A stretch of DNA of 64,000 nt from contig NZ_CP150496.1 in assembly GCF_038019025.1 (NCBI RefSeq), positions 1,081,501 to 1,145,500 on the forward strand, given 5' to 3'. Position 1 is the stretch's first letter. Every line of letters starts with the position of its first letter. Positions 5,163 to 21,459 of this stretch are shown here, piece after piece. A model generated the notes under the pieces. The model was given only the letters and a program-made list of their open reading frames with translations, was not told where the DNA came from and searched no databases. A program made the translations under genes and the position numbers. Source of the stretch: Polaribacter marinaquae (lineage in GTDB: Bacteria; Bacteroidota; Bacteroidia; Flavobacteriales; Flavobacteriaceae).

Positions 5163-5198
5163 TTATAAACTTGTATAATTTCTTTTAAAAGTGCGGAT

Positions 5199-6150: not shown

Positions 6151-6171
6151 GCTGTATTGCTATTTATCATG

Positions 6172-6189
6172 TATTTTCCAAGGAAAATA
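6172..6189. promoter_or_regulatory. Candidate MarR operator before the pirin gene
   Basis: TATTTTCC and GGAAAATA are perfect inverted arms separated by AA. The site is 22 bases before the pirin start and close to the MarR stop. A near-identical site (TATTTACC-AA-GGAAAATA) is at 8252-8269 before the DoxX-like gene. An 18-bp dyad repeated at two promoters beside a MarR gene fits an operator. Confidence 0.6.
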
Positions 6190-6204
6190 TATTTGCAAAT
6201 TTTT

Positions 6205-6642: not shown

Positions 6643-6672
6643 CTGCTACTTTTTTTTATTTTAAGTTAGAGT

Positions 6673-6933
6673 TTAAGCTCTTAACTTTAAATCTTGCATT
6701 ATCTTATTAAATTCTTCTGTAGTTGGTGTTAAATACACTTTATCGTCTACAAATAAAGTCGGAAATTTAGCAACACCGTTGTACAATTCTTTACTGTGTT
6801 CTCTAGCCTCTACATCTTTAGAGATATCTTTGTATGTATAAGGCACATCTGTAGAATTTAAAAAGTTTTTAAACGCTACAGTATACGCATGCCCTTGTTT
6901 ACCGTATAAAACGATGTTTAATTTATTGCTCAT
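6673..6933 (-). CDS. Glutaredoxin-like protein without cysteines
   Basis: This 86-residue protein aligns with glutaredoxins: beta-1 (NIVLYGK), the helix after the active site, the cis-Pro loop (KFPTLFVDD, Pro58) and the C-terminal helix. Where the family has CPYC it reads HAYT at 15-18, and the whole protein has no cysteine. It therefore cannot do thiol-disulfide exchange and may instead bind or regulate. Its start overlaps the end of the FMN reductase gene by 11 bases, which implies translational coupling. Confidence 0.8.
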   Translation of the reverse strand: MSNKLNIVLYGKQGHAYTVAFKNFLNSTDVPYTYKDISKDVEAREHSKELYNGVAKFPTLFVDDKVYLTPTTEEFNKIMQDLKLRA

Positions 6934-7459
6934 TAACTAATTTTTCAAAAGTGTTTACTTGTTCTTTTAATGCGATTAGAAGATCTTCTCCTGTAATTTT
7001 ACCATCTTTAAAATTATCGTAAAAACTTGGTAAAGAAAAAGTAACAATATCACTAGCACCGTGTCTAGAAAATCTTTGTTCACCGGCACTTAACACAAAT
7101 TGACCGCCCATTCCGCCTGGTGACGTTGCCATTAATAATAATGGTTTATCTCTAAATACTTTTACATTTATTCTAGAACTCCAATCGAAAATATTTTTAA
7201 AAGCAGCGGCGTAAGAACCATTATGCTCTGCTAAAGAAACTATAAATCCATCATAACTATCTAAGCTAGTTGTAAAGCTTTTAATATCTTCTGGAAAACC
7301 ATTTTTTTCTTCGTCTTCACTATAAACAGGTACTTTAAAAGTTGCTAAATCGATTACATCAAAAGTAGAGTTTTCTAAATTTTCTGCTGCAAAAGTAACT
7401 AACTGTTTATTTATTGATGTAGAACTTGTACTACCTGCAAATGCTAATATTTTTTTCAT
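6923..7459 (-). CDS. NADPH-dependent FMN reductase family protein
   Basis: A 178-residue flavodoxin-fold protein. The phosphate-binding loop for FMN is AGSTSSTSINKQL near the N-terminus, and the family block AEHNGSYAAAFKNIFDW is near the middle, as in ArsH/ChrR/azoreductase-type reductases. It would transfer electrons from NAD(P)H through FMN to quinones or other acceptors. It sits between OsmC and the glutaredoxin-like gene in a tight minus-strand group, which supports a role in electrophile or quinone defence. Confidence 0.9.
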   Translation of the reverse strand: MKKILAFAGSTSSTSINKQLVTFAAENLENSTFDVIDLATFKVPVYSEDEEKNGFPEDIKSFTTSLDSYDGFIVSLAEHNGSYAAAFKNIFDWSSRINVKVFRDKPLLLMATSPGGMGGQFVLSAGEQRFSRHGASDIVTFSLPSFYDNFKDGKITGEDLLIALKEQVNTFEKLVNEQ

Positions 7460-7468
7460 ACTTATTTT

Positions 7469-7855
7469 TTAAATAATTTTTGAATCTATTCTTGTTTCTC
7501 CTTTAACCATTTTTGCTACCGGACATTTTCCTGCAATTACTAGTAATCTCTTTTGTTGATCATCTGTAATTTCTTTTTCAAAAGAGATTTCTTCTGTTAA
7601 AAATTTCTCATTATTTTCTATTACCTGCGTAACTTTTACATCAATCTCACCTACATCCCAACCTTTTCTTTCAGAATACATTCTTAAAGTCATGGCTACA
7701 CAACCACCAATTGCAGTTAGTAAATATTCTACGGGTGTTGGTCCGTTATCATCTCCTCCATCAACAACAGGTTCATCTAGAGTTAAAAAATGATTTCTAG
7801 CTTTTGCTTCTGCTAAATAATTTTTATTTGATAAAGTAACTTTAGAGTTTGTCAT
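7469..7855 (-). CDS. OsmC family peroxiredoxin-like protein
   Basis: A 128-residue OsmC/YhfA-type protein. The two redox cysteines are Cys52 (AIGGCVAMTL) and Cys111 (AGKCPVAK), with the family motif GPTPVEYLL before the first. Members reduce organic hydroperoxides. The start overlaps the DoxX-like gene by 14 bases. Together with the MarR and FMN reductase genes it suggests an oxidant- or electrophile-inducible operon. Confidence 0.92.
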   Translation of the reverse strand: MTNSKVTLSNKNYLAEAKARNHFLTLDEPVVDGGDDNGPTPVEYLLTAIGGCVAMTLRMYSERKGWDVGEIDVKVTQVIENNEKFLTEEISFEKEITDDQQKRLLVIAGKCPVAKMVKGETRIDSKII

Positions 7856-8207
7856 GATTTATTTTTTTTGAAGTGATGTAAGAAGTAATTAATAGAATTA
7901 TAGCTACAATTGCACCCGTTTGCTCGCCATCATTAATCATTACATGTGCAAAAAAGGCTAAAATAAAAGCAAAGAAAAAACTAGAATATGCCCACTCTTT
8001 AATTACACTTTTTGTAAAAAACCATATTGCAATTAAACCTAAAATTTTAGCAATAGCATACGGATAAATAATATAAGTTGGATATCCGAAGTTGGTAAAC
8101 ATGTTGGCTACTTCTTCATGATTAAAAAAGTACATTCCTGCAGAAAAAAGCATTAATAATGTTAACAATCCTGTAGAAATATAATATAAAATTTTTGCTG
8201 TTTTCAT
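7842..8207 (-). CDS. DoxX-like membrane protein
   Basis: A 121-residue protein with four predicted membrane helices (about 7-28, 45-62, 70-88 and 95-112) and little outside them, matching the DoxX/DoxX-like size and layout. It is the first gene of the redox group and is preceded by the inverted repeat at 8252-8269. DoxX-like proteins often neighbour OsmC, thioredoxin or quinone-related genes; the reaction is not known. Confidence 0.82.
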   Translation of the reverse strand: MKTAKILYYISTGLLTLLMLFSAGMYFFNHEEVANMFTNFGYPTYIIYPYAIAKILGLIAIWFFTKSVIKEWAYSSFFFAFILAFFAHVMINDGEQTGAIVAIILLITSYITSKKINHDKL

Positions 8208-8307: not shown

Positions 8308-10122
8308 TTACAAGATTGTATTTTTTATTTTTTTTAAAAGTTTTATTAAAAAAATAGAAGCTATAATAACTAATGAAGTTAAAATTAATGCTTGTTTGTA
8401 ATCGCCATAAATCCAAAAACCCGTTGCAAACAAACAACTATAAATTAACACGCAACTGAGTAACATTGCTAATATTGCATTAGGCAAACTCCAGTTTTTT
8501 TCTTTTTGATCAAAATTAATTCCTGCCAAATTTGCTTTTGCAACAACTTTACGCCAACCGGCGCCACTAGGTAGAATATTCTTATAAAATAATTGAAGTG
8601 TTTCATCTTTTTCTGGCGGAGTTAAAAAAGTAACTACCAACCAAATTATAGTTGTTACTAACACCACAAACGGAAATTGAAACCAACTAGGAAAAAGACC
8701 ATCTTCTACACCGAATAAAATAGTTTTTAAAGACGTAAAATTTAAAAGTATCGAAATTATTCCTGATGAAAACATAGCAGAAATTTCGCTCCAAGCATTT
8801 ATTCTCCACCAAAACCATCTCAAAATAAATATTAAACCAGTACCTGCACCAAACATTATAATAATATCAAATACTTGTTTCACATTTGTTAAAGTTAAAG
8901 CTAATAAACCGCTTATAACCATCATTAATATTGTACTTATTCTACCTACATTTACCAATTGTTTTTCTGTAGCTTCTTTTTTAATAAAACGTTTATAAAA
9001 GTCATTTACTACATAAGAAGAACCCCAATTTAAATGTGTAGAAATTGTACTCATATATGCTGCAATTAAAGATGCTAAAACAATTCCTAAAATCCCTTTT
9101 GGTAAAAAGTTTAACATTGCTGGATATGCCAAATCATTCCCTAATTTATCCGCAGGAATATTAGGAAAAGCACTTTGCAAACTTGCAATATCTGGATATA
9201 TCACCAAAGACGCCAAGGCTACTAAAATCCAAGGCCAAGGTCTTAAAGCATAATGTACAAAATTAAAAAAAAACGTTGCACCTATTGCGTGATTTTCATC
9301 TTTAGCTGCTAACATTCTTTGTGCAATATAACCTCCACCTCCTGGTTCTGCACCAGGATACCAAGAACTCCACCATTGTAATGCTAACGGAATAATTAAA
9401 ATTGTAATTACCGTATTTGTATCATTAAAATCTGGCAACATATTAGTTTTGGTTGCCACGAGTTTATTTTGAAACAAACTTTCCAAACCACCAACTTCTG
9501 GTAAATTTACAGCATAATAAGCTGCTGCTATTGCCCCAAACATGGCAATTATAAAAAGTAAAAAGTCGGTATAAACAACACCTCTAAAACCACCGAAAGC
9601 AGAAAAAATTACTGTAACAGAACCAGCATACAAAACAACTTCCCAAGGTTGAATCCCCAACATTATTCCGCCAATTTTAATAGCTGCCAATGTTACTACA
9701 GACATTACCAAAATATTAAAAATAACACCTAAATAAATAGACCTAAAACCTCTTAAAAAACTTGCTGCTTTACCACTGTATCTTAATTCGTAGAACTCTA
9801 AATCTGTAGTTACACCAGATTTTCGCCAAAGTTTTGCATAGACAAAAACGGTTAGCAAACCTGTAATTAAAAACGTCCACCAAACCCAATTACCTGCAAC
9901 ACCATCTCCTCTAACAATATCTGTTACTAATAACGGTGTATCTGCAGCAAATGTAGTTGCAACCATAGAAAAACCAAGTAACCACCAAGGCATAGTTCTG
10001 CCAGAAAGAAAAAATTCTGAAGAACTTTTTCCTGATTTTTTTGATACTATAAAACCAATTAATAAAATAACTGAAAAGAAAAGAACGATTATAAAATAAT
10101 CTAATGCAGATAGTGCTATCAT
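8308..10122 (-). CDS. Sodium:solute symporter family transporter
   Basis: A 604-residue inner-membrane protein with about 13 hydrophobic segments. The N-terminal block (FIVSKKSGKSSSEFFLSGR, then MPWWLLGFSMVAT) is characteristic of the SSS family, which couples solute uptake to sodium. The substrate cannot be read from the sequence. It is 100 bases downstream of a membrane protein gene and has its own -7 box, so it is probably a separate transcript from the cluster behind it. Confidence 0.9.
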   Translation of the reverse strand: MIALSALDYFIIVLFFSVILLIGFIVSKKSGKSSSEFFLSGRTMPWWLLGFSMVATTFAADTPLLVTDIVRGDGVAGNWVWWTFLITGLLTVFVYAKLWRKSGVTTDLEFYELRYSGKAASFLRGFRSIYLGVIFNILVMSVVTLAAIKIGGIMLGIQPWEVVLYAGSVTVIFSAFGGFRGVVYTDFLLFIIAMFGAIAAAYYAVNLPEVGGLESLFQNKLVATKTNMLPDFNDTNTVITILIIPLALQWWSSWYPGAEPGGGGYIAQRMLAAKDENHAIGATFFFNFVHYALRPWPWILVALASLVIYPDIASLQSAFPNIPADKLGNDLAYPAMLNFLPKGILGIVLASLIAAYMSTISTHLNWGSSYVVNDFYKRFIKKEATEKQLVNVGRISTILMMVISGLLALTLTNVKQVFDIIIMFGAGTGLIFILRWFWWRINAWSEISAMFSSGIISILLNFTSLKTILFGVEDGLFPSWFQFPFVVLVTTIIWLVVTFLTPPEKDETLQLFYKNILPSGAGWRKVVAKANLAGINFDQKEKNWSLPNAILAMLLSCVLIYSCLFATGFWIYGDYKQALILTSLVIIASIFLIKLLKKIKNTIL

Positions 10123-10156
10123 TTATTTAATTTACTTTTTAATAAAATAATTTATT

Positions 10157-10164
10157 CAAAAATA
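10157..10164 (-). promoter_or_regulatory. Putative -7 box for the symporter gene
   Basis: On the minus strand the bases read TATTTTTG, matching TAnnTTTG, 35 bases before the symporter start at 10122. Confidence 0.45.
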
Positions 10165-10221
10165 GGTAAATAAATTTTATGCTAGTTTTAGCAAAAAGGC
10201 AATCCTAAAAAGCTATAAATA

Positions 10222-11907
10222 TTAATTCATTTTTATTGAATCTATCTTCTTTTGTAGTGCTTTAATTCTTTTAGAATCTAATTCTTTTTTTGAAATTAGC
10301 TTTATCGAGTCTAAAATAGATTTATTTTTCTCTAAAATTGTTTGTTCTTTTTCGAAGTAAATATTTCCGTTTTCACTAGCTCTCCAAGCTTCGTTTAATT
10401 GAATATAAACCTCTTCATTCCATGTACTTGGTTTTTTTGCATCAATCCAAATAACATCTCTATATTCACTATCAATTAATGCTAAATCGGGTGTTGCCGA
10501 ACCATCAAACTGTGCATTTTCTTTTTTAATCGCCGAAATGGTACTTAGAAAAAACATTCTCTTTTTGCCAGCAATATTTTTAATATAAGGTCTAAATTCT
10601 ACTGGTTTATTTGCAGACCAATCATATTCTTTTCTAGATTCTATTACTTTTAAAGGCATTGCAGAAACACCTGCATAACCTTGTTTTTTTGAAGCATGAT
10701 CGTAATAATATAATTTATCGGTTCCATCCGCAGGAATAAAAACACTAAATGTTAAACTTGTTCTTTCGTCTCCAACAGGTTCTAGCCCAAACCAATGATA
10801 TAAACCACTAAAAGCACCCGTTTTTGTATCAGAAAAATCGAAATCTGTTACAAATGGTTGCTGATTTTGATCGTCTGGTAAGTCTGGAATTTTAACTGCC
10901 GTTTTCATATTCCACGGCAAAGGATCTCTAAATCCTCCTAAAAACTTTAAACTTTCTGCTTGTAAACGAGATACTTTTTCTGACAGCGTATTTTGCTTTG
11001 TTAAGTATTCGTAATTTTTCATTTCATCTGGCGAAATAAAAATTCCTTTACCAATTGTAATTCTTTCTAGATAATCATTAAAATCGTGTTCACCATTTTC
11101 TACAACCATTACGCCACCAAATGTAGGATACGGAAAGAAAAAACCTTTCCACTTAATTAAACTTACAACTTGTACCCATGCGCCTTTGTCATTTTTCATG
11201 TAATAAGTATCGCTTGGTTCGTAATTAAAAAGCATCCACGGATTTAATCTTTGCACAACAGCATTGTAAGTATTTCTACTAAATTTTAAAGATTCGCCAA
11301 TTGAAAAAGTTACAGGAATTCTATTTTCTGATGAAAAGCGAGGAAAAGGTGTTGTACTCGAAACAGAAAAAACCTCTTCTGTATTGTCTTTAATTCCTTG
11401 CCAAACATACTTTTCGGTTGGTTGGATTGCCATTGTCCATTGGTTATGACCATCAACTCTAACCAAATGTGGTAAAGAAACATCTTTGGTTTCTCCTACG
11501 GATTCATTTGCCATCGAAAATATATTTCTTAAAGGCTGAATTCTTTCATTTTGGGTTAAAGGAAGCTCTACAATTTCGATTCTTTGTAAACTATTATAAA
11601 CATTATATGTTTTCATATAATCGTAGAATTTTAAATTCCAACCTACATAATAAACAACTGCGAAAAAAACAGTTAAAAAAACTAAAATACCAATTCTTTT
11701 ACCTGTACTAGCAGATTTTCTAAATGTTCTAAGACTAAAAAATAAGATTGTAAAACACAACAATATGATAAAAATAAACTTTCTAACAAACAATAATGCT
11801 GGCTGATAATCATCTCTTAAAAAAAACAACAAAGCAAGAGTTATGATACTTAAAATCACAACTATTTTTTTTTGCCTTGGACCTTTACTCCAATAATTCT
11901 TAATCAT
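10222..11907 (-). CDS. Unrecognised membrane protein with a large extracytoplasmic domain
   Basis: I do not recognise this 561-residue protein. It has three membrane helices at the N-terminus (about 15-30, 42-60 and 71-90), then some 440 soluble residues rich in beta-type sequence and aromatic residues. A basic helical tail (about 520-561) looks like a coiled coil. Topology suggests the large domain lies in the periplasm. It is the last gene of the AAA+ cluster, 35 bases after a small membrane protein gene. A role as the envelope component of that cluster is inference. Confidence 0.8.
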   Translation of the reverse strand: MIKNYWSKGPRQKKIVVILSIITLALLFFLRDDYQPALLFVRKFIFIILLCFTILFFSLRTFRKSASTGKRIGILVFLTVFFAVVYYVGWNLKFYDYMKTYNVYNSLQRIEIVELPLTQNERIQPLRNIFSMANESVGETKDVSLPHLVRVDGHNQWTMAIQPTEKYVWQGIKDNTEEVFSVSSTTPFPRFSSENRIPVTFSIGESLKFSRNTYNAVVQRLNPWMLFNYEPSDTYYMKNDKGAWVQVVSLIKWKGFFFPYPTFGGVMVVENGEHDFNDYLERITIGKGIFISPDEMKNYEYLTKQNTLSEKVSRLQAESLKFLGGFRDPLPWNMKTAVKIPDLPDDQNQQPFVTDFDFSDTKTGAFSGLYHWFGLEPVGDERTSLTFSVFIPADGTDKLYYYDHASKKQGYAGVSAMPLKVIESRKEYDWSANKPVEFRPYIKNIAGKKRMFFLSTISAIKKENAQFDGSATPDLALIDSEYRDVIWIDAKKPSTWNEEVYIQLNEAWRASENGNIYFEKEQTILEKNKSILDSIKLISKKELDSKRIKALQKKIDSIKMN

Positions 11908-11942
11908 TTTTTAAATTTTTATTTTATGAATTTTTACAAAAC

Positions 11943-12464
11943 CTATAACAAACCTTTGTCTTTCAATCTTTCTCTAGCACTTTTTTCTTCTACTTTACTA
12001 TCTTTAACTTCTTCTTGTGCTTTTTTAATAGCAACAGGTTCTTCTGTTTTTAAATCTTTCACAAAACCTTTTCCTTTTTCTAAAACATCATTAAAAGTAT
12101 CTCCTAAATTTTCTGATTGTTCTTCTATAATTGCAGAAGATTTAAAAATAAACCCAGCAATATAAGTTCCTAATAACGTACCAAAAATCATCGAAGTAAA
12201 TAACGAAACGGTTGTAATATCTATCGGAATTATAAAACGTGCAATTAAAACTAAAACTAAGAAAAACGTGCTTATATATACAAGTCTTAAAAGAAAGTTT
12301 TGTTGATAGATAAAGCCTTTTTTGTTCGTAATAGACATCTGTAGTTCTTTAGAATTCATCATTTTATTAAAAAAACGATACAACTTATTTCCTTGAGATT
12401 CTCTCCAAAATAAAATAATACCAAATAAAATAGCTGCAATAAATATTAAAAGTTCTAGTGTCAT
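11943..12464 (-). CDS. Unrecognised small membrane protein with charged tail
   Basis: A 173-residue protein of unknown family. Hydrophobic segments lie at about 2-18, 58-77 and 83-109. They are followed by a highly charged Lys/Glu-rich tail (about 110-173) with coiled-coil character, ending in ERLKDKGLL. The tail probably faces the cytoplasm and could bind a partner. It is 23 bases downstream of the 411-residue gene and 35 bases upstream of the 561-residue gene, so it belongs to the same transcript. Confidence 0.75.
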   Translation of the reverse strand: MTLELLIFIAAILFGIILFWRESQGNKLYRFFNKMMNSKELQMSITNKKGFIYQQNFLLRLVYISTFFLVLVLIARFIIPIDITTVSLFTSMIFGTLLGTYIAGFIFKSSAIIEEQSENLGDTFNDVLEKGKGFVKDLKTEEPVAIKKAQEEVKDSKVEEKSARERLKDKGLL

Positions 12465-12487
12465 ATTATTTGTGTAAGATGTTTTGT

Positions 12488-13723
12488 TTAAAAATTATTT
12501 AAAATAGTTTCTATTACCCAATCTTGAGTTGAGCTTTCTAATGTTTTGAATGTGCTATAAAATTGTTCTTTGTCATACCAATATAAAAATAACACATCTT
12601 TTGGCGCAATATTTACCAATAAATACCAAATTAAATCTTGGTGATTTGGTTTTAACGAAGAATGCGGTTTGTGCAACGAAACAAACAAATCTTTGTCTAA
12701 AAAATCTTTTGCTTTTATGGTTTTAGAAGTTTTCTTTTTTTCTAAAAACAACTCTAAACCCATTACTTTTTTTCTCGCAGAAATATCAATTTTATTTAAA
12801 TAACTCTTAAAAAGAATGTCGTTTTGTAAAATATCTTTTACCAAATGTGTTGGCGACATCAAATGTTTCGAAAGCGTATATTTCTTAATTCTTTCGTATT
12901 TCTTTTGATGCAATTCTTCTTCTAGATTTGCTTCTATAACGTCATAACTTAAAAGCTTATCGATTAACTCATCATGAGAAATATGATACATTAAAATATC
13001 ATGCACAGTATCGTTTATCGCTTGGTTGTATGTTTCTTTTTCTTGAAAAATTAAAATTGGTTTTACAAAATCTTTCAACACAAAAATTCCGCCAAATGCT
13101 TTCGTATAAAAAGAATCTGTAGTGTATTTAATTTCTTCTAAAATAAGATTTCTTTCACGTAAATCGCCATATTTTTTAGCAGATGCTAATAACTGTTTAT
13201 GAATATTTTCGTCTATAAAATTATTGTCTAAATTAAAAGTATGAATTAATTTTAATTGGTTCTCTTTAGCTTTATTTAAGTTATTTATTAAATGAAATTT
13301 TATTACAATGTCTTTATATTTTAAAACGTCTAAAGGTTCGTAAAAAACATCTATTTTTTGATCAAAATCTAAGCATATAGCTGAATCTCTAGTAATATCT
13401 TTTATAAAATCGCCATGTTTTTTAAAAACAACCTTCATTAATTCTTTGTCAAAAGAATGAAAAGGATTGTAAATTGGTAAACTTTTTTGCAAAGGCGAAA
13501 TAATAATTGCGTGCGTATTTGCCTCTTCATTATTTAAATAAAATTGCTCTTTCTTTTCTTCTGCAATCTCTGGACTCCAACCTAAACCATCAATAGAAAA
13601 AGAGGTTAACGTTGTTTTAGAAAAACCTAATTTTTCTAAACATTTATTGTAGCGCTCTACTAATTTTCCGTTAACAGAAATTAGTTCGTTTCTAAATAAT
13701 TTTGCGTCTTTTAGTTTTTCCAT
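12488..13723 (-). CDS. Unrecognised cytoplasmic protein, 411 aa
   Basis: No signal peptide or membrane segment is visible, and I see no motif that fixes a function. The protein is rich in Lys, Leu and Phe and reads as mostly helical in the second half. It may be one of the Bacteroidota-specific domains of unknown function. Only one base separates its start from the Nudix stop, so translation is likely coupled. Position within the AAA+ cluster suggests it works with that ATPase. Confidence 0.75.
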   Translation of the reverse strand: MEKLKDAKLFRNELISVNGKLVERYNKCLEKLGFSKTTLTSFSIDGLGWSPEIAEEKKEQFYLNNEEANTHAIIISPLQKSLPIYNPFHSFDKELMKVVFKKHGDFIKDITRDSAICLDFDQKIDVFYEPLDVLKYKDIVIKFHLINNLNKAKENQLKLIHTFNLDNNFIDENIHKQLLASAKKYGDLRERNLILEEIKYTTDSFYTKAFGGIFVLKDFVKPILIFQEKETYNQAINDTVHDILMYHISHDELIDKLLSYDVIEANLEEELHQKKYERIKKYTLSKHLMSPTHLVKDILQNDILFKSYLNKIDISARKKVMGLELFLEKKKTSKTIKAKDFLDKDLFVSLHKPHSSLKPNHQDLIWYLLVNIAPKDVLFLYWYDKEQFYSTFKTLESSTQDWVIETILNNF

Positions 13724-13724
13724 T

Positions 13725-14309
13725 TTAATTTAACAAATTATGAATTTGAGCATATTGTAGCAATACAATTGTTCTTGTATCTTCTATTTTACCGCTGTTT
13801 AGCATATCAATAGCTTCTGTAAACGGTATTTCTAAAACTTCTATATCTTCGTTTTCTGATGCTATGCCGCCACCTTCGCTTACTTTCATATCATCAGAAT
13901 ATTCTGCCACAAAAAAGTGCATTTTCTCTGTTAAAACCCCTGGAGATGAATACCCTTCGTAAACTTTTTTAACAGACTTTAATCGAATACCAACTTCTTC
14001 TTCGGTTTCTCGTATAATACATTGTTCAGGATTATCTTGATCTAATAATCCTGCCGGAATTTCAACTAAAAAACCATCTTTATTATCATGTACAAACGTT
14101 GGAAAACGAAATTGTTTGATTAAAATTACGGTCTGTTTTTTTGTGTTATACAATAAAATTCCTGCACCATGACCACGTTCATAAACTTCTCTCATTGGTT
14201 TTACCCAACTACCATCAGATTTTTGATAATCAAAATTAAATTTAAAAAGCGTGTAATAATTGTCTGATAAAACAGTTTTTTTTATATTTTTTACTCTTAA
14301 ACTACTCAT
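13725..14309 (-). CDS. nudK: Nudix hydrolase, GDP-mannose pyrophosphatase NudK-like
   Basis: A 194-residue cytoplasmic Nudix enzyme. The Nudix box spans about 87-108: AGLLDQD, then PEQCIIRETEEEVGI. The spacing matches my memory of E. coli NudK (AGLLDNDEPE), and the C-terminal block (TIVLLQYAQIHNL) is also NudK-like. NudK hydrolyses GDP-mannose and related sugar nucleotides; ADP-ribose is an alternative substrate for close relatives. The gene overlaps the AAA+ ATPase stop by 8 bases, an unusual partner for such an enzyme. Confidence 0.85.
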   Translation of the reverse strand: MSSLRVKNIKKTVLSDNYYTLFKFNFDYQKSDGSWVKPMREVYERGHGAGILLYNTKKQTVILIKQFRFPTFVHDNKDGFLVEIPAGLLDQDNPEQCIIRETEEEVGIRLKSVKKVYEGYSSPGVLTEKMHFFVAEYSDDMKVSEGGGIASENEDIEVLEIPFTEAIDMLNSGKIEDTRTIVLLQYAQIHNLLN

Positions 14310-16260
14310 TACTAAAAGATTTTCTTGCTTGTAAATCTATGTTTAATTGATTCACACGAGCATCAACTTTTCGTTTAAAATCGGTGTCTGCAATCGTTGC
14401 CACATTGTCTAAATACCTTACAACTTCTTGTCTTCTAATTTCAGAAAAATCTAAACCTTTCATATTGCTTTTCATCAATTCTTGCAACATGCCAAATTTG
14501 GTTTCGTAATTCTTTTTGAAATAAATTTCTGGATTTTCGAACCAATCTTCTTCCAAATCAAAATCTGTTAAACGTAAAGAAATTGCAGATTGAATGTTTC
14601 TAACATCTCTAGAGGAGAAAAATGGAAATATTTGCTGAATTTCTTTATACAAACTTGCAAAAAACAAATGCTGATTAGTACTATGCTTTTGCACAGCTTT
14701 GTCATAAGCTTCTAAAACTCTTTCTTCGGATGGTTTTTCTACAGAACTAAGAATTTCGCCCATATTTTTTGTAAGACCTTGATCTTTTAAATATTGATAA
14801 TTTTCTGGATTTTGCATATTCACAAAATCCGGAATTGTTTTTTCAAATTTTTTCCACCAAATATAATCTTGATCTAAAAAGTCATTTTCTGTTCTTGCAC
14901 CATCAATTTTAAACCTACCTTGTACTCTAGAAATTACTGCTTTGTCTAACATTTCTGGTAAATTGGTAAAAAGTCCGATAGACGAATTCCCATAATTTAC
15001 AGCATAAGCACCTTCTGTATAACGTAAGAAAACACCAATTACTTCTTTAACACCAGCAGAAACTCCTTGTGCAGTTCTTTCTTGCAAGTTATTTTCGGCG
15101 TCATCAATTGGCGCAAAAATTAATTTAGTTGGGTCTTGCATAGGTTTCATCCATTCTACCATTTTTTCTGCAGAACCACCTTGAAATGTACTAATTAAAG
15201 TATCTGGCATGGGATGAAATAAAAACGGAATATCTAAATTGTCTGCATGCTCTTTTAATCGAGTTGCAATGGCAGCAATTAACATACTTTTACCTGTTCC
15301 TGGTATTCCGTAACCCATAAAAACAGGCATAAAACCACCCAATTCTTGAAACGGATTTTTCTTTGCATCAAAATCGTAACTTAACATTCTTTCTGTTAAC
15401 CTACGTGCAAAATGCTTTGCATCTTTATTACCAACAATTTGTTCGAATTTAATTTTATTAAACTCAACACTTTTTGCCGTTCCAGAAAAAAAATTCTCCC
15501 AACCAGAAACGGCAAAATCTGTTTTTTCTAATTTATAAGTTCTATCTACAATTGTTTCTGTGTACTCTAAAGTACTTTTTCTTAACTGAATTTCATCAAT
15601 TAGAGCTTCAAAATAAACAACCGTAAAATCGATAACATCTTTGTCTGACTTTATAATATCTGGATGTGCTAAATATTTATCAAAATAAAACAAACTACAC
15701 GCAATTCCTTTTAAAGGTGACATCAAAGAAACCTCTGGAATACCAGCAAATTTCTGTTTCATAACCGATAAATCGTCCGAAGAAAATGGTTTTAAATCGT
15801 GTAATATTTTATACGAAGTTCCAAATAATTGAAATGCTGTTGCTGTTTGCATTTTACTTTCGAACTCTCGTTTACCATTGTTATCTAAAGCTGATTTACG
15901 TTCTGCTAAACTAGATAAACCCGAAGCGTCATTGTAACTATCTTTAATCCAAATTCCTAACGTTAATCCTTCTTGAACAGCGTACAAGGTTTTGTTTAAG
16001 TTGATTGGAATTGCTAAAGAATCTGGTAATAAACGTTTTTTTAACGCTAAAATTGTTTTAGAAACTGACGTAACTGAAGTGCTACTTCCGTTATTGGCTC
16101 TAGATAAATACAGTAAAATAGATTCGTCTTTGGCATCTTTATCTTTATTTTTTGCTCTAGCTCCTTGTTCCCATTGAACAGATTTTAAATATCCACTCGC
16201 TTCATCTCGAAGCATATTGAGTTCATTTTGCTTTATTGGAAAAGTAGAATTGTGTTCCAT
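14302..16260 (-). CDS. AAA+ family ATPase of unknown role
   Basis: A 652-residue soluble protein with one AAA+ module. Walker A is GIPGTGKS at 318-325, Walker B is LIFAPIDDAE at 380-389 (Asp-Asp where most have Asp-Glu), the sensor-1 Asn is about 433 (FTNLP), and arginine-finger candidates are Arg445 and Arg449. The first 300 residues are a helical domain I do not recognise, and a helical region follows the ATPase core. It should use ATP to remodel a partner. Neighbours (349 aa protein upstream, Nudix overlapping downstream) are its likely partners. Confidence 0.88.
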   Translation of the reverse strand: MEHNSTFPIKQNELNMLRDEASGYLKSVQWEQGARAKNKDKDAKDESILLYLSRANNGSSTSVTSVSKTILALKKRLLPDSLAIPINLNKTLYAVQEGLTLGIWIKDSYNDASGLSSLAERKSALDNNGKREFESKMQTATAFQLFGTSYKILHDLKPFSSDDLSVMKQKFAGIPEVSLMSPLKGIACSLFYFDKYLAHPDIIKSDKDVIDFTVVYFEALIDEIQLRKSTLEYTETIVDRTYKLEKTDFAVSGWENFFSGTAKSVEFNKIKFEQIVGNKDAKHFARRLTERMLSYDFDAKKNPFQELGGFMPVFMGYGIPGTGKSMLIAAIATRLKEHADNLDIPFLFHPMPDTLISTFQGGSAEKMVEWMKPMQDPTKLIFAPIDDAENNLQERTAQGVSAGVKEVIGVFLRYTEGAYAVNYGNSSIGLFTNLPEMLDKAVISRVQGRFKIDGARTENDFLDQDYIWWKKFEKTIPDFVNMQNPENYQYLKDQGLTKNMGEILSSVEKPSEERVLEAYDKAVQKHSTNQHLFFASLYKEIQQIFPFFSSRDVRNIQSAISLRLTDFDLEEDWFENPEIYFKKNYETKFGMLQELMKSNMKGLDFSEIRRQEVVRYLDNVATIADTDFKRKVDARVNQLNIDLQARKSFSNE

Positions 16261-16269
16261 GTTTTTTTA

Positions 16270-16324
16270 GTTTTCAGTATACAGTTTCAGTAAGCAGTTC
16301 TGATTACTGCTACTGTTACTGCCA
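16270..16324. repeat. Degenerate CAGT/ACTG inverted array
   Basis: Four CAGT units (from 16275) are followed by three ACTG units (to about 16322), separated by TCTGATT. The two halves are inverted copies and can fold (CAGTAAGCAGT against ACTGCTACTG, one bulge). It fills the gap between the 349-residue gene and the AAA+ gene. I recall similar CAGT-rich intergenic tracts in other Bacteroidota, but their role is unknown to me. Confidence 0.6.
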
Positions 16325-16327
16325 ACT

Positions 16328-17377
16328 TTATCTTTTATCAATTTTTAAATTTGAAACTTGAATTGGCTGTTTTGCCAACTTATTCAATATTCCTGGTGTT
16401 TTATTGTGCAATAATTGTATAATTCTATGTGGTGCAAAAACGTATTTTTTTTGCGCTACTTCGTTCCATTTTTGCATGGTTTGTTTCGAGAAAAATCCGC
16501 CTTCTTTAAAAGTATCTCCAGAAAAAACCTCATCTATTTTAAGAGACAATGCATAACTTTCTAAAGGAATTTCCTTTTTAGCAATTGCCTCTAAAATTGC
16601 ATGTGTAATTTCGTTTTCGTCTTTTGCAAATACATTATGCAACGGACCTAAATCGATTCTTTTTATATGCTTAGGATGAATATCTGGTAATTTTCTATCA
16701 ATATTATACGCCATTGTATCTAACGGCATTTCTCTATCAGCACTTTCTTTTAAAACTCTATATAATTCTGATTTTTCTTTACTAATATTCTTTCCATCAA
16801 AATCGAAATACATAAAACATATAAATGGTCTGTTATGTGAAACATCGTAAAAACTCCAGCTTGTCATGTATTTTGAAGAAATACTGTCTGGTGAGTTTAA
16901 AATTTTTCCTTGCACAAATCTGTTGTAAATATATTGCTGATTTACAGATGAATAATACACTATTGATGCTGCTTGAAAAAGACGATTCCTTTTAACCGGC
17001 TGTTTTTTTCTTAATAAAGTGTCTAAAAATTCGTCTTTTATAGAGTACGATTCGTTTAGTTTTGATAAAAACTCTTTTTTTAGACCTAAGTCATTATATA
17101 AATATCTAAATTCGAGATAATTAGGAAACCCAGATTCAGTTAAATCTACCTTCATATTATCTTCCTCATCATACATATATTTTACGCGCATTGCCTCTAT
17201 TGAATACAATAACAAGTCGGAATATTGCTTAAAAAATGTAAGTTCTTGCAGGTTACACAAATCTTGTCTTTGTACATTAACTAGCAATTCCTTCAACGCA
17301 AAGTCTACCATTTTATGATAGAAAACATATTGCTCTTTGGAATCTAGAATTGCAGAATCTAACGGTGTAGTTATCAT
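16328..17377 (-). CDS. Unrecognised cytoplasmic protein, 349 aa
   Basis: No signal peptide, membrane segment or known catalytic motif is visible. The sequence is rich in Tyr, Lys and Leu and looks mainly helical in the N-terminal half. A central block (FICFMYFDFDGK) is the most strand-like part. It starts two bases after the MazF-like stop codon and precedes the AAA+ ATPase by 67 bases. A partner or substrate adaptor of that ATPase is a reasonable guess only. Confidence 0.75.
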   Translation of the reverse strand: MITTPLDSAILDSKEQYVFYHKMVDFALKELLVNVQRQDLCNLQELTFFKQYSDLLLYSIEAMRVKYMYDEEDNMKVDLTESGFPNYLEFRYLYNDLGLKKEFLSKLNESYSIKDEFLDTLLRKKQPVKRNRLFQAASIVYYSSVNQQYIYNRFVQGKILNSPDSISSKYMTSWSFYDVSHNRPFICFMYFDFDGKNISKEKSELYRVLKESADREMPLDTMAYNIDRKLPDIHPKHIKRIDLGPLHNVFAKDENEITHAILEAIAKKEIPLESYALSLKIDEVFSGDTFKEGGFFSKQTMQKWNEVAQKKYVFAPHRIIQLLHNKTPGILNKLAKQPIQVSNLKIDKR

Positions 17378-17379
17378 GC

Positions 17380-17712
17380 TTAAAATTTAAGAATATCGTT
17401 TAAGGTTTTTTTAATTACCTCAACATCTTTCAACGGAATTTTACCTATTTTTTTATCGAGCCTTGTTTTAGAAACCGAACGAACATGAAAAGTTAACACT
17501 TCCGAAGTTTTAGACAATCCGTTTATTTCGCTAGGTTCTAGCACAAGGTTTCCTTTATAGTTTTTAACACTTGTTGTTAATGGACAAACAATTACAACTT
17601 GTAAATGTTTATTTAACATATTACCACTTATAATTACCGCAGGTCTTCTACCACTTTGCTCGCTTCCTTTTGTGGGATTTAAATACAATTCCCAAATTTC
17701 GCCTTGCTTCAT
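17380..17712 (-). CDS. Type II toxin, PemK/MazF family endoribonuclease
   Basis: A 110-residue MazF-fold protein. The N-terminal block KQGEIWELYLNPTKGSEQSGRRPAVII holds the conserved Gly-Glu-Ile-Trp and Gly-x-Arg-Arg-Pro motifs, and CPLTTS follows in the middle. MazF toxins cut mRNA at short sequences and are neutralised by the cognate antitoxin. The antitoxin gene ends directly before it. The toxin also abuts the 349-residue gene (two-base gap), so the pair is in the same transcription run as the AAA+ cluster. Confidence 0.9.
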   Translation of the reverse strand: MKQGEIWELYLNPTKGSEQSGRRPAVIISGNMLNKHLQVVIVCPLTTSVKNYKGNLVLEPSEINGLSKTSEVLTFHVRSVSKTRLDKKIGKIPLKDVEVIKKTLNDILKF

Positions 17713-17958
17713 TTAGTGAGTTTCTTCATTATTGATTGAAGTAAAATATTCTTGCATACCTTCTTCTGCAACCAATAAAATATCTTGGTCTGTACCAGCT
17801 TGCTTATAAGACTTTATGTAACTAGCCTTTTCTATTTGCTCTAAATATAACTCTAAAGCATTTTCTATTAACCTATTTTTAGGAAGCTTTAATTCTTTAG
17901 CTAAAACAGATAATTTTTCTAAAAGACTATCTGGTAATGAAGATGTAAATGTTGCCAT
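17713..17958 (-). CDS. Ribbon-helix-helix antitoxin
   Basis: An 81-residue protein with an N-terminal ribbon-helix-helix (TFTSSLPDSLLEKL, then LKLPKNRLIENALELYL), the CopG/MetJ-type DNA-binding fold of antitoxins. The acidic C-terminus (AEEGMQEYF) is the usual toxin-binding tail. It directly precedes the MazF-like toxin with no gap. A -7 box and a small inverted repeat upstream fit autoregulation. Confidence 0.88.
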   Translation of the reverse strand: MATFTSSLPDSLLEKLSVLAKELKLPKNRLIENALELYLEQIEKASYIKSYKQAGTDQDILLVAEEGMQEYFTSINNEETH

Positions 17959-17975
17959 TTTATATTTATTTTTTA

Positions 17976-17995
17976 CAAATATAAATAATATTTAT
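17976..17995 (-). promoter_or_regulatory. Promoter and possible operator of the toxin-antitoxin pair
   Basis: On the minus strand TATATTTG (17976-17983) is a perfect -7 box, 18 bases before the antitoxin start. An inverted repeat ATAAATA-A-TATTTAT (17981-17995) overlaps its upstream edge and could bind the ribbon-helix-helix antitoxin. Confidence 0.5.
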
Positions 17996-18102
17996 AAATT
18001 ATACTTGTATTTAATAGTTAAAACTAAATTTAAAGGCTTTATTTCCAACATTATAAACACTAACCAACTTAATAAGTAAGCAATAAGCTAGTAAATAAGC
18101 CC

Positions 18103-18199
18103 GCGTTAAGGATTGAAATGACATCCTTTTTCTCTTTCAGAAAAAGATATAATGTAAAGCCTGACCTTCTTTTGTTTTTCTCAAAAGAAGGGAACGCCC
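18103..18199 (-). repeat. Structured flavobacterial repeat element, copy 2
   Basis: Same framework as the copy at 5199-5281. Read on the minus strand, AGGGCGTTCC is followed by a 10-bp hairpin (CCTTCTTTTG / CAAAAGAAGG), the conserved ATATC block, a second hairpin (TTTTTCT / AGAAAAA), GGAT and TTAACGC. Stem sequences differ from copy 1 but pairing is kept, which argues for a selected RNA or DNA structure. It begins 8 bases after the stop codon of the coiled-coil gene. Confidence 0.75.
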
Positions 18200-18207
18200 T
18201 ACTTATT

Positions 18208-19548
18208 TTAACCTAACAAATCGTCGTTGTTAGACTCTGGTTTTGGATCGTTTGCTGGTTCTCCACCTTCTGAAGATGCTTCTCCATCTGCCTTATAATA
18301 ATCTTCGAAAATTTCTTTCATATCGATACCATAACGCTCTGCAAAGTTTGCCTGAATCTTAGAATCTTTTGCACGAATTTCATGCAAAGCCTCTGCGTAG
18401 GTGCTATAAACACCTTGCATAACTTTTTCGTGAACCGGAATGTTGTCCATCATTTCTTGACGTGCTTTGGCACTTGCCGTATGCATAGATGCTAAGGTTT
18501 CACCAATATGCTCATCGGTTTTTACACCTAAATGCTCTAAAATTGCCGCAAATTCTTGATCTGTTCTTGCTTTTAACGCAACAACATAACCGTCGTAATA
18601 CTTCAAACGTTCATCTGTATCACTTTTTAATTTTGCTCTGTGTGTTTGTAAATTAGAACGTAAAGAAGTTAACACTTTAATAGTTAAATTGTGCTTGTGC
18701 ACAAAACTATCTTTAGACGCCGCCAAAGTTGTGTAGGCATTTTTAAGACCTTCTAACTCTTCTACTTTTTGCTCTATAGTTGTAACTTTAGACAAAGCTT
18801 CTGAATATTCAGCAGATTGTTTGTCTGCAACTTCTTCTAATGCTTGACGCGCTTGCTTAAGCAAAGCATACTGTTCTTCTAATTTTGTTTCTGTTTCTGC
18901 TTTTTTCTCTAAAGCTTTTGTATGATTTTTAGAAGCTTCTACAATTGCATCTTTTAGCTTTTCTTCTACTTCTTTAATTTCTACTTCACGGTTTTTTAAA
19001 CGCGTAACCGCTGCTTGAGATTTGTAAGAAAGCTCACTTAATAATGTTTGTACATCTGCACTTTCTATACGTTGTTGAAACTTTGCTTTTGCTTTATTAT
19101 CTGCGCCAGCACGTATTTTTTCTGCTTCTTTAAATTCCGCTTGCTCCTTTTTAATTTTAGATTTACGCCCCCAAAGATTATTCCACCAAGTATCTGGTTT
19201 GTTCTCTGCGTCTTCTAATTCTATTCTTGCTCTTTCTAATGCTTTTTGCGCATCGTCTATTATTTTTTGCTCTTCTGGATTTAATGATGAGAATTTTTCA
19301 AAAATAATTCCAACCTCATCTTGATAATCAGTTAAGTCTTTAATTGCATCTAAAAGCGTTGTTCTGTCTTTTTCTGCCATGTGCACAACATCATCTAATG
19401 TTGCATTTAATATTTTTTGACGTCTTTGTGGGTCCTCTTCTTGAGATAGTTTGGATTTCATCGTATCGATGGCTTTCCCCCAGTTTACATCAACTTTTTC
19501 GGTTTTCTCGTTAGAATTCGTTTCTAATAAATCAAAATCATCAGACAT
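18208..19548 (-). CDS. Unrecognised coiled-coil protein, 446 aa
   Basis: A soluble protein dominated by heptad-rich helices from about 95 to 310 (long Glu/Lys/Ala runs such as KKAETETKLEEQ). It has a helical C-terminal domain (about 310-415) and an acidic, disordered tail ending NNDDLLG. No signal peptide or membrane segment is seen. Loose similarity in style to TelA/toxic-anion-resistance proteins is not enough for a call. It is the upstream-most gene of the AAA+ cluster, separated from the rest by a repeat element and the toxin-antitoxin pair. Confidence 0.78.
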   Translation of the reverse strand: MSDDFDLLETNSNEKTEKVDVNWGKAIDTMKSKLSQEEDPQRRQKILNATLDDVVHMAEKDRTTLLDAIKDLTDYQDEVGIIFEKFSSLNPEEQKIIDDAQKALERARIELEDAENKPDTWWNNLWGRKSKIKKEQAEFKEAEKIRAGADNKAKAKFQQRIESADVQTLLSELSYKSQAAVTRLKNREVEIKEVEEKLKDAIVEASKNHTKALEKKAETETKLEEQYALLKQARQALEEVADKQSAEYSEALSKVTTIEQKVEELEGLKNAYTTLAASKDSFVHKHNLTIKVLTSLRSNLQTHRAKLKSDTDERLKYYDGYVVALKARTDQEFAAILEHLGVKTDEHIGETLASMHTASAKARQEMMDNIPVHEKVMQGVYSTYAEALHEIRAKDSKIQANFAERYGIDMKEIFEDYYKADGEASSEGGEPANDPKPESNNDDLLG

Positions 19549-19681
19549 AATTTGCGTAGTGTTTTTTAATTGAACAATTTTAAGACAAGCAATTTCGTTA
19601 AAAAATTTAATTTATAACAACATTTCTATAGATATATGTAGTTTTTTTATATGAATTGTTACAAACATTGTAGAAAAAATA

Positions 19682-19710
19682 AAAACACCACTAAAAAATA
19701 GTGGTGTTTT
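19682..19710. terminator. Bidirectional hairpin terminator
   Basis: A 12-bp perfect stem (AAAACACCACTA / TAGTGGTGTTTT) encloses the loop AAAAA. It stands between aceA and the coiled-coil gene, with T-rich ends on either strand. Confidence 0.7.
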
Positions 19711-19763
19711 CGCTTCAAATAAAATTTACAAACAGCTAAATTTATGTAAACTTATTTTAAAAA

Positions 19764-19814
19764 AATTCCCGCATCGTTTTAAACAAACAACTAAAAAAAA
19801 CAACGGCGGGAATT
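19764..19814 (-). terminator. Terminator of isocitrate lyase
   Basis: On the minus strand AATTCCCGC pairs with GCGGGAATT, with a second inner pairing (CGTTGTTTT against AAAACG), and is followed by seven T. It begins 28 bases past the aceA stop. Confidence 0.75.
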
Positions 19815-19842
19815 GTATCCTATCGAAATAGAATAAAAATTA

Positions 19843-21459
19843 TTAAACTATAGCTTCTGCTACTTTATTTTCTTTTGCTTCAAACTGATTAGAAGTATTA
19901 TTCGCTCCACCAGCCTTTAAAGCTTTATCTCCAGCAAAGAAGGTTTTGTGATCGTCTCCTAAATCTGAACCAGCCATTCTTTGGTGTTTTACACAAGAAA
20001 CTCCTTTTCTAATTTCTTGTCTTTGCACACCTTTTACATAAGCTAACATTCCTTCTTCACCGAAATAACCTTCTGTTAAATCGTTCATATGCAACGCTGT
20101 TGTATGATAGGTTGGTAATGTAATTAGATGATGAAATATTCCAGCTTCTCTTGCTCCATCAACCTGAAAAGTTTTAATTTTTTGATCTGCAAGATGACAT
20201 AATTCTGAACCATCATATGCTTTATCCATTAAGTTATTTCTATCATATTCCGACATATTTTCTCCCTCTGCTAACATTTCATCATACACTTGGTTACGGA
20301 AATTTAAGGTCCAGTTAAAAGAAGGCGAATTATTATACACCAACTTTGCATTTGGCACTACCTCTTTTACTCTATTAACCATATGTGCAATTTGCTTAAC
20401 ATTTGGTGTTGGAGTTTCAATCCACAATAAATCTGCTCCGTTCTGTAAACTTGTAACACAATCTAAAACAACTCTATCAATATTAGAACCGTCTTTAAAT
20501 TTATACAATCCATTTGGTAATCTTACCGGACGCACTAATTTACCTTCTCTTTTTAATAAAACATCGTCTTCTTTGGCGTCTTCAATTGCAATTTCTTCTG
20601 CCTCTACAAAAGCTAAATATTGAGAAGCTAAATCTCCAGGCTCTTGACTTACTGGTAATTTCTGTGTTAAACCAGCTCCTTCAGAATCGGTTCTTGCTAC
20701 AATTACTCCATCATCTACACCTAATTCTAAAAATGCATAACGAATTGCATTTAATTTAGCTATAAAATCTTCATGTGGCACGGTTACTTTTCCATCTTGA
20801 TGACCACATTGTTTTGCGTCTGAAACCTGATTTTCTATCTGAATTGCACAAGCTCCAGCTTCAATCATCTTTTTAGTTAATAAATAAGTAGCTTCTTCAT
20901 TACCAAAACCTGCATCTATATCTGCTATAATTGGAACGATATGCGTTTCAAAATTATCTATTTGATCTTGTACGTCTTCTCCGTTTTCTTTTCTTCGGAA
21001 TAAATCATTTAATTCAATTGCGTCTGCTTGACGTAAGAAATCATAAATTTCTGCAATTAAACTTGGTACTGCTGTTTTTTCGTGCATTGATTGATCTGGC
21101 AATGGTCCAAATTCCGAACGTAAAGCAGCAACCATCCAACCTGACAAATACAAATAACTTTTATTTGTTGTTTTATGATGTTTTTTTACAGCAATCATTT
21201 TTTGTTGCGCCACAAAACCATGCCAGCAACCTAAAGATTGTGTATAATTTGACGAATCTGCATCATATTCCGCCATATCTTTTCTCATGATTGCAGCTGT
21301 ATATTTAGCAATATCTAAACCTGTTTTAAAACGGTTTTGAGTTGCCATTCTTGCAGCACTTTCAGAATTTATAGCATTCCAAGAGTTGCCATATTTTGCT
21401 TTTAAATTTCTTACTGTTTCTAATACTGAACTATAATTTGTTTGTGCTAAATTTTTCAT
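19843..21459 (-). CDS. aceA: Isocitrate lyase
   Basis: Cleaves isocitrate to glyoxylate and succinate, the first glyoxylate-shunt step. The catalytic signature is KQCGH at 216-220 with Cys218 as the active-site residue, and the metal-binding block IIADIDAGFG lies near 177-186. At 538 residues it is longer than the E. coli type (434) and closer to the long bacterial form. It is the second gene after malate synthase, with a hairpin in the 75-base gap. It is probably co-regulated with it by the divergent RamB-like regulator. Confidence 0.96.
   Translation of the reverse strand: MKNLAQTNYSSVLETVRNLKAKYGNSWNAINSESAARMATQNRFKTGLDIAKYTAAIMRKDMAEYDADSSNYTQSLGCWHGFVAQQKMIAVKKHHKTTNKSYLYLSGWMVAALRSEFGPLPDQSMHEKTAVPSLIAEIYDFLRQADAIELNDLFRRKENGEDVQDQIDNFETHIVPIIADIDAGFGNEEATYLLTKKMIEAGACAIQIENQVSDAKQCGHQDGKVTVPHEDFIAKLNAIRYAFLELGVDDGVIVARTDSEGAGLTQKLPVSQEPGDLASQYLAFVEAEEIAIEDAKEDDVLLKREGKLVRPVRLPNGLYKFKDGSNIDRVVLDCVTSLQNGADLLWIETPTPNVKQIAHMVNRVKEVVPNAKLVYNNSPSFNWTLNFRNQVYDEMLAEGENMSEYDRNNLMDKAYDGSELCHLADQKIKTFQVDGAREAGIFHHLITLPTYHTTALHMNDLTEGYFGEEGMLAYVKGVQRQEIRKGVSCVKHQRMAGSDLGDDHKTFFAGDKALKAGGANNTSNQFEAKENKVAEAIV

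Follow-up and report, generated by a model that had tools for sequence, protein, structure and literature searches.

The analysis of a 64,000-nucleotide stretch of the Polaribacter marinaquae genome (Flavobacteriaceae; contig NZ_CP150496.1, positions 1,081,501 to 1,145,500; hereafter the window) reveals a conserved unit of six genes that brings together a classical AAA ATPase and two membrane proteins. Nine consecutive open reading frames (ORFs) of the minus strand run from position 19548 down to 10222, and comparison with relatives shows that six of them form the system, namely those for a coiled-coil protein (CC446), a soluble protein of no known family (P349), the ATPase (AAA), a DUF6638 protein, and two membrane proteins (M173 and M561); a NudK-type Nudix gene is optional, and a toxin-antitoxin pair is a local insert. 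We tentatively propose that the products of the unit form a protein-remodelling AAA machine tethered to the membrane, likely serving envelope upkeep under stress. The host genome is a single contig of 3.17 Mb, and the AAA gene places its nearest named relatives in Polaribacter. The ORF table agrees with the nine same-strand genes and the lengths given in the original prediction, which a model had made from the letters of the window alone (aa, amino acids):

18208..19548, minus strand: CC446, 446 aa; soluble coiled-coil protein, largely helical, whose gene opens the unit; C-terminus DDLLG
17713..17958, minus strand: RHH-type antitoxin, 81 aa; Pfam RHH_3 (PF12651), 5.4e-8; insert outside the system
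17380..17712, minus strand: MazF/PemK-type toxin, 110 aa; Pfam PemK_toxin (PF02452), 2.1e-27; insert outside the system
16328..17377, minus strand: P349, 349 aa; soluble core protein of no known family
14302..16260, minus strand: classical AAA ATPase, 652 aa; PF00004, 1.3e-8, 35.8 bits versus a cut-off of 21.2
13725..14309, minus strand: NudK/YffH-type Nudix hydrolase, 194 aa; TIGR00052, 164.1 bits; optional accessory
12488..13723, minus strand: DUF6638 protein, 411 aa; PF20343, 107.5 bits versus a cut-off of 27; soluble core protein
11943..12464, minus strand: M173, 173 aa; three predicted transmembrane segments and a polar tail, predicted to be cytosolic, ending here in SARERLKDKGLL
10222..11907, minus strand: M561, 561 aa; three N-terminal transmembrane segments and about 470 residues predicted to be extracytoplasmic

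Conservation, boundaries and distribution of the unit

A scan of named genomes returned 341 relatives, the best 80 of which form the set of loci compared here. The six core genes keep an identical order (CC446, P349, AAA, DUF6638, M173, M561) in 72 of these 80 loci, which argues that the arrangement is not due to chance; among the other eight, six lie on short contigs and two are full-length stretches that miss the last genes. P349 is present in 78 loci and DUF6638 in 75. Gene-neighbourhood comparison had been set beforehand as the refuting test for the system, and its outcome is that the genes stay together. A family sample of 60 genomes, one per genus, yielded a full-length AAA protein in 22 representatives (our own included; 74-100% identity) and two further matches that are weak and confined to the AAA module. 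By comparing 23 stretches from this sample (21 other full-length loci and the two weak ones), we found DUF6638, M173, and M561 in all 21 other-genus loci (M561 edge-cut in two) and P349 and CC446 in 20 of them; the remaining locus, L027, stops 1.95 kb past AAA, space enough for P349. The Nudix gene, originally counted as part of the system, is indeed present in 60 of the 80 loci and in 11 of the 21 other-genus loci, a frequency that makes it an optional accessory. The toxin-antitoxin pair, which had also been included, was rejected as a member because it occurs in only 5 of the 80 loci, and it was found in none of the 21; in itself it is a type II pair, with the PemK/MazF toxin gene immediately behind the RHH antitoxin gene (0 bp apart).

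The junctions of -8, 1, and 2 bases that had been taken to imply co-translation were confirmed by the coordinates, and every one of them touches an optional or inserted gene (AAA-NudK, NudK-DUF6638, and MazF-P349, respectively). The remaining junctions of the window measure 249 bp (CC446-RHH), 0 bp (RHH-MazF), 67 bp (P349-AAA), 23 bp (DUF6638-M173), and 35 bp (M173-M561). Counted from the first possible start of each ORF, so that the real gaps are possibly wider, the median gaps in relatives are 187 bp for CC446-P349 (30 bp or less in 0 of 77), 158 bp for P349-AAA (2 of 78), 52 bp for DUF6638-M173 (10 of 72), and 106.5 bp for M173-M561 (3 of 72), and the sole junction that is usually tight, overlapping or nearly touching, is AAA-NudK (44 of 59). 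Such wide spacing at most core junctions gives no support to co-translation of the core; co-transcription of the unit is likely. Two features of the intergenic DNA were recorded:

19681..19711, minus strand: terminator-like stem of 13 pairs with a T tail, separating isocitrate lyase from CC446; upstream boundary of the unit
17959..18207, minus strand: CC446-RHH gap, containing a dispersed repeat of about 65 bp

A scan found no further minus-strand terminator-like site within 10000-19900; the terminator count did not stand out above that of shuffled sequence (4 versus a mean of 3.2). The CC446-RHH gap has 16 matches in its own genome, itself included, and the other copies are 73-97% identical.

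Within the phylum, the searches for AAA, DUF6638, and M561 all led to one set of 4 genomes out of 296, which belong to a single family, and a second AAA profile that included distant relatives gave 4 of 196 genomes of the order. Of 58 Polaribacter genomes, 27 carry CC446 and the same 27 carry AAA, and the carriers have larger genomes (median 3.9 versus 3.05 Mb; Mann-Whitney p 0.0007 with kinship ignored, over the 45 genomes with a completeness of 90% or more and a contamination of 5% or less). Pairwise identities over the 80 loci reveal that CC446 and AAA, which both average 87%, evolve at a housekeeping pace and that the other members evolve faster. Expressed relative to AAA, the median divergence is 1.01 for CC446, 1.75 for M561, 2.17 for P349, 2.51 for DUF6638, 3.03 for M173, and 3.42 for NudK, and among the neighbours it is 0.45 for an ABC-F protein, 1.09 for isocitrate lyase, 2.02 for malate synthase, and 2.57 for MarR. 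Protein identities correlate with those of AAA at r 0.49-0.88, with M561 at r 0.73.

The patchiness of the unit (22 of 60 genera, 27 of 58 Polaribacter genomes) would fit an anti-phage defence system in which the AAA protein forms a sensor/effector complex near a toxin-antitoxin pair, and the insert-prone gaps, the fast divergence of several members, and a weak PADLOC match of the AAA protein to IetA (E 4.4e-6) point the same way. We nevertheless consider a defence role improbable. The divergence of CC446 and AAA is that of housekeeping genes, the toxin-antitoxin pair is rare, and the AAA protein matched none of 50,697 phage records and had no relative among the 77 pattern matches that a pattern-limited scan of viral contigs returned. 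The likeness to the IetAS system ends with IetA-like matches at E 4.4e-6 or weaker: the AAA protein scores 14.3 bits against an IetA equivalog cut-off of 510, and no IetS-like match was found by PADLOC among the nine proteins up to E=0.1.

The flanks of the unit, common within clades, also speak against a defence cassette, as does one relative in which a remnant persists. Isocitrate lyase was found in 9 of 15 chosen Polaribacter genomes (8 of 10 operon-less, 1 of 5 operon-bearing), and an empty-site comparison was made of seven operon-less and one operon-bearing Polaribacter stretches. Isocitrate lyase and the OsmC-MarR block stand on one stretch, 1.2-8.2 kb apart, in five of the seven operon-less cases, and the block is not on the stretch in the other two. 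In one of these gaps (L137, 10461-12942) an intact-looking Nudix gene precedes short remnants of DUF6638 (residues 20-58) and M561 (residues 526-561) in the right order and orientation, a deletion scar at the expected site; the other four gaps gave no operon remnant at E <= 0.01. The patchy distribution is thus due to loss at least in part. The slow evolution of CC446 and AAA, the loss scar, and the lack of matches in the phage and viral records together argue against a mobile defence cassette.

As to position, 7 of the 10 full-length Polaribacter loci have the MarR block downstream, and 39 of the 54 other loci have it upstream; the arrangement of the window, with isocitrate lyase upstream and the MarR block downstream, is found in 6 of 64. 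Over all 80 stretches MarR was seen in 54 (13 downstream, 41 upstream). One fixed site across the whole family therefore proved too strong a claim, the flanks being shared within clades only. In the window, the block adjoining the operon (4452-8207) is one that we take, with gene names partly assigned from sequence, to be pirin-pirin-MarR-glutaredoxin-FMN reductase-OsmC-DoxX. Recurring inserts also occupy the gaps of the unit: a protein of about 119 aa in 14 loci (median position between P349 and AAA) and one of about 117 aa in 11 loci (between DUF6638 and M173), both of which we take from sequence to be four-helix-bundle proteins, as well as a 211-aa protein (10 loci) and a 148-aa membrane protein (8 loci). 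A protein that is presumably GIY-YIG-like stands near or after the last genes in 5 loci.

The ATPase and its soluble partners

The AAA protein is laid out as an N-terminal region of about 260 residues, which has no Pfam match, an AAA module, and a C-terminal region. The module carries Walker A GIPGTGKS (318-325), F359, Walker B DD (386-387), N433, and R445/R449, of which, by general knowledge of AAA proteins, we take F359 as the pore-loop-1 residue, N433 as sensor-1, and R445/R449 as arginine-finger candidates. Across the 80 loci the motifs are nearly invariant (GIPGTGKS and FQGGSAEK in 80, FAPIDDAENN and SRVQGRF in 79). Membership in the classical AAA group is indicated by PF00004, matched by all eight members of an alignment of five flavobacterial, two Vibrio, and one S. 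meliloti proteins, and the profile of these eight aligns to VCP/Cdc48-type structures (E 8.1e-10) as well as to proteasomal ATPases, Vps4, and katanin; a flavobacteria-only profile matched no solved structure up to E 0.1. The aromatic column of pore-loop-1 holds F in the flavobacterial members (F359 here) and Y in those of Vibrio and S. meliloti. In all eight the Walker B motif is DD rather than DE, so that the complete AAA+ motifs of the original prediction stand, as classical AAA, for all but this position. No protease family was matched in Pfam, and a weak match to CdvC was obtained (E 0.0026).

For the other proteins, hidden Markov model searches, one of the proposed checks, gave a divided outcome. 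The 411-aa protein that had passed as unrecognised belongs to DUF6638, which is a named but uncharacterised family with no assigned function; for CC446, P349, M173, and M561, no Pfam or NCBIfam score passed a curated cut-off, and PADLOC and PHROGs offered no convincing match. DUF6638 shows no transmembrane segment by hydropathy, and a literature search, with most subscription papers outside its coverage, found it named in no paper. P349 matched nothing in Pfam or NCBIfam up to E=1, and BLASTP finds a Vibrio relative (E 4e-13) with 23% identity across 271 columns. The window copy of CC446 is 81-90% identical to 17 other sequences; the protein ends in DD[LM]L[SG] in 77 of 77 cases and shares 14-22% identity over the alignment with its Vibrio and rhizobial relatives. 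Its AlphaFold model is helical with a mean predicted local distance difference test (pLDDT) score of 62.9, and a fold search with this moderate-confidence model returned 713 matches, with none at E <= 0.001 among the 50 listed. Profiles of DUF6638, CC, and M561 gave no credible match to solved structures. The Nudix protein exceeds the cut-off of the YffH/AdpP subfamily (TIGR00052, 164.1 versus 79.55 bits) and remains below that of the NudK (GDP-mannose pyrophosphatase) equivalog (221.4 versus 234 bits); NudK-type enzymes act on nucleotide sugars.

A Vps4/Cdc48-type module in a classical AAA protein, the CdvC match, and the adjoining long-helix protein together raise the question of ESCRT-III/PspA-like remodelling, in which CC446, though sharing no descent with ESCRT-III, would polymerise on the inner membrane and the AAA protein would disassemble it as Vps4 does; associations of bacterial PspA with AAA ATPases have been described (PMC11237479, in the portion available). 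We regard such a role as unlikely. CC446 gave no Snf7, PspA, or TelA match up to E=10, none of the three is among the 25 of 46 families listed for a 12-member CC alignment, and no ESCRT-III structure is among the 50 of 713 fold matches listed for CC446. The 15 Pfam families matched by the eight AAA members up to E=10 include no MIT domain, although a diverged domain could escape this search. Homology of CC446 to ESCRT-III, PspA, or TelA, tried as a candidate, thus finds no profile or fold support.

Set beside Vps4/ESCRT-III (CdvBC), the unit is alike in its classical AAA module, pore-loop aromatic residue, second-region-of-homology (SRH) arginines, and adjoining long-helix partner; it differs in that no MIT domain or Snf7-family partner was found and in its N-terminal region of about 260 residues, its DD Walker B, and the additional P349, DUF6638, M173, and M561. 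TelA/XpaC toxic-anion resistance systems comprise a soluble coiled-coil protein with a membrane partner, and we know of no AAA partner for them; CC446, without a TelA match, is unlike them in this respect. PSP (PspA) operons, as presented in the available portion of PMC11237479, likewise group a coiled-coil protein with an AAA ATPase and with membrane partners. They are unlike the present unit in that none of the nine window proteins matches PspA_IM30 up to E=1 or any of the partner domains named in that portion.

Membrane proteins and the core outside the phylum

Hydropathy predicts three transmembrane segments in M173 (1-19, 61-79, 88-106), and the loop between the first two (20-60) contains 8 K/R versus 2 D/E, a charge that suggests a cytosolic tail. 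The end of this tail fits AR[EDQ]RLK[DE]KG in 72 of 72 tails, and an end so constant, behind a linker that varies, resembles a docking peptide. M561 has predicted segments at 12-30, 38-56, and 72-90; its two predicted cytosolic stretches have K/R to D/E ratios of 3:0 and 5:0, from which about 470 residues are predicted to lie outside, in line with the large extracytoplasmic domain first proposed for it. In a 43-sequence alignment, M561 is 63-87% identical to the window copy, apart from one identical row. Structure models, also among the proposed checks, were obtained for CC446 and M561 and both are weak; that of M561 (mean pLDDT 53.3) has its best Foldseek match at E 0.36, and nothing is drawn from it.

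The strong conservation of the M561 domain, predicted to be periplasmic, and the nucleotide-sugar activity generally known for NudK-type enzymes would also suit the assembly or export of a surface structure, with M561 as a periplasmic platform and the ATPase complex supplying or recycling subunits. This reading appears quite improbable: among the families found inside the unit in at least 5 of the 80 loci, judged by their first 60 residues, no outer-membrane or glycan gene was recognised, NudK is optional, and M561 is without a match in the plasmid records described next.

Beyond the phylum, 72,556 plasmid records were searched. The AAA query matches ten of them, four from Vibrio and six rhizobial, at 26-31% identity. 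DUF6638 matches the same ten, at 22-24% identity over its full length in rhizobia and at 43% over just 18% of the query in Vibrio, although the DUF6638 model gives the V. vulnificus protein 199 bits. A Vibrio P349 query returned the same ten records, and an S. meliloti CC query the same ten plus one. According to the coordinates, CC, P349, AAA, and DUF6638 lie within a few kb of one another in 10 of 10 records. The order in V. vulnificus is CC, P349, AAA, DUF6638; S. meliloti Ak57 has the same order, interrupted behind AAA by an endonuclease gene and an insertion sequence before DUF6638 and then continued by a gene for DUF2333 (PF10095). The ten replicons are 0.9-4.6 Mb in size and predicted to be non-mobilizable.

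Neither M173 nor M561 was matched in the plasmid records, including those from Vibrio and rhizobia. This absence, together with the loose core junctions in relatives, could mean that the AAA-P349-CC-DUF6638 quartet alone is the unit and that the remaining genes are unrelated and merely share its neighbourhood. We consider this distinctly unlikely, as M173 and M561 stand behind the quartet in 72 of 80 loci, with six of the remaining eight on short contigs, and as M561 occurs in the same phylum genomes as AAA and its identities follow those of AAA.

DUF2333 in S. meliloti Ak57 takes the position behind the quartet that the membrane partners hold in flavobacteria, and it is present in five of the six rhizobial quartet records. 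It is predicted to have two transmembrane segments and a large soluble part, and its comparison with solved structures gave nothing below E 0.48; in the literature search, one paper turned up for it. It differs from the membrane proteins described here in that it is not in the flavobacterial operon and M561 gives no DUF2333 match. The eleventh CC record, plasmid pSK03 of R. leguminosarum, carries CC directly followed by DUF2333, then five genes and a formate-tetrahydrofolate ligase gene (L136, 9989-12343), and no match to P349, AAA, or DUF6638 was found on it. Its neighbours are those of the S. meliloti cluster, with a choline transporter and thymidine kinase before and the ligase after. The pSK03 CC protein lacks 22 residues (window residues 321-342) that are kept in the other 11 aligned sequences and is divergent beyond them; as a single copy, it gives a faint hint that this segment might contact the missing proteins.

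DUF2333 was also tried as an exclusive partner of CC and rejected in that role: it also occurs on two plasmids of Skermanella and one of Rhodobacteraceae, none of which is among the CC records. In Skermanella rosea (L146, 3821-8487) and Rhodobacteraceae SC52 (L145), DUF2333 is near a sigma/anti-sigma pair, a neighbourhood that suggests stress regulation of DUF2333. In P. fluorescens MFE01 a DUF2333 gene is beside a Nudix gene, according to the available portion of PMC5256989, and this adjacency is probably coincidental.

A possible envelope machine

For the membrane-tethered AAA remodelling machine that we favour, the mechanism would be as follows. The AAA protein would assemble into a ring and act, by pulling or by disassembly, on CC446 or on a partner presented by CC446, with P349 and DUF6638 as its adaptors. 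M173 and M561, or DUF2333 in most of the rhizobia seen, would tie this machine to the inner membrane, M173 anchoring it through its conserved C-terminal tail and M561 sensing or holding an envelope component with its large periplasmic domain. NudK would be an optional helper, and the role would be the upkeep of envelope proteins or the membrane under stress. The conserved linkage, the AAA motifs, and the hydropathy-based topology form the observed basis of this proposal; the mechanistic steps go beyond that linkage and the structure models are weak, so we hold it tentatively, at slightly less than even confidence. In its favour are also the shared occurrence of CC446, AAA, DUF6638, and M561 across genomes, the clustered quartet on plasmids, the pSK03 pair with its altered CC, the near-invariant M173 tail, the slow divergence of CC446 and AAA, and the deletion scar. 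A machine linking a cytoplasmic ATPase to the envelope, in a set without a name, was the central claim of the original prediction; it is upheld to the extent that a conserved set joins the ATPase and membrane proteins, and the physical link is one that we infer from gene order, predicted topology, and the CC-DUF2333 pairing on one rhizobial plasmid.

Several observations weigh against this proposal. Homology supports a function for the AAA and Nudix proteins alone, and neither the CC446 nor the M561 model provides a fold match at E <= 0.001. With DD in place of DE at Walker B, hydrolysis may be slow. AAA is absent from 31 of 58 Polaribacter genomes and so is dispensable, and P349, DUF6638, and M173 diverge 2.2-3.0 times as fast as AAA, at rates like those of the neighbouring MarR and FMN-reductase genes. 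Outside the phylum, in addition to the lack of M173 and M561 matches on plasmids, no membrane partner was identified beside the Vibrio quartet, DUF2333 was not found in the quartet record of R. leguminosarum TP16, and DUF2333 is also present without detectable CC.

A wider proposition is that an undescribed envelope machine exists in at least two phyla, with a CC-P349-AAA-DUF6638 core, lineage-specific membrane partners, and a Vps4/ESCRT-like role at the inner membrane, its coiled-coil substrate being related to neither ESCRT-III nor PspA; this is possible, and we consider it doubtful. By the features compared, the unit is a member of none of the Vps4/ESCRT, PSP, TelA, and IetAS systems, and it may resemble Vps4/ESCRT in its action. 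No description of the gene set was found in a literature search that left most subscription papers outside its coverage.

The system offers several handles, including the M173 tail, the CC segment that is missing from the single copy found with no ATPase gene beside it, the natural pair of CC and DUF2333, and Polaribacter genomes with and without the unit. Five of the six proteins belong to no characterised family, and if the proposal is true, a large marine family would possess a multi-gene machine, its core common to Vibrio and rhizobia, that is still unnamed.

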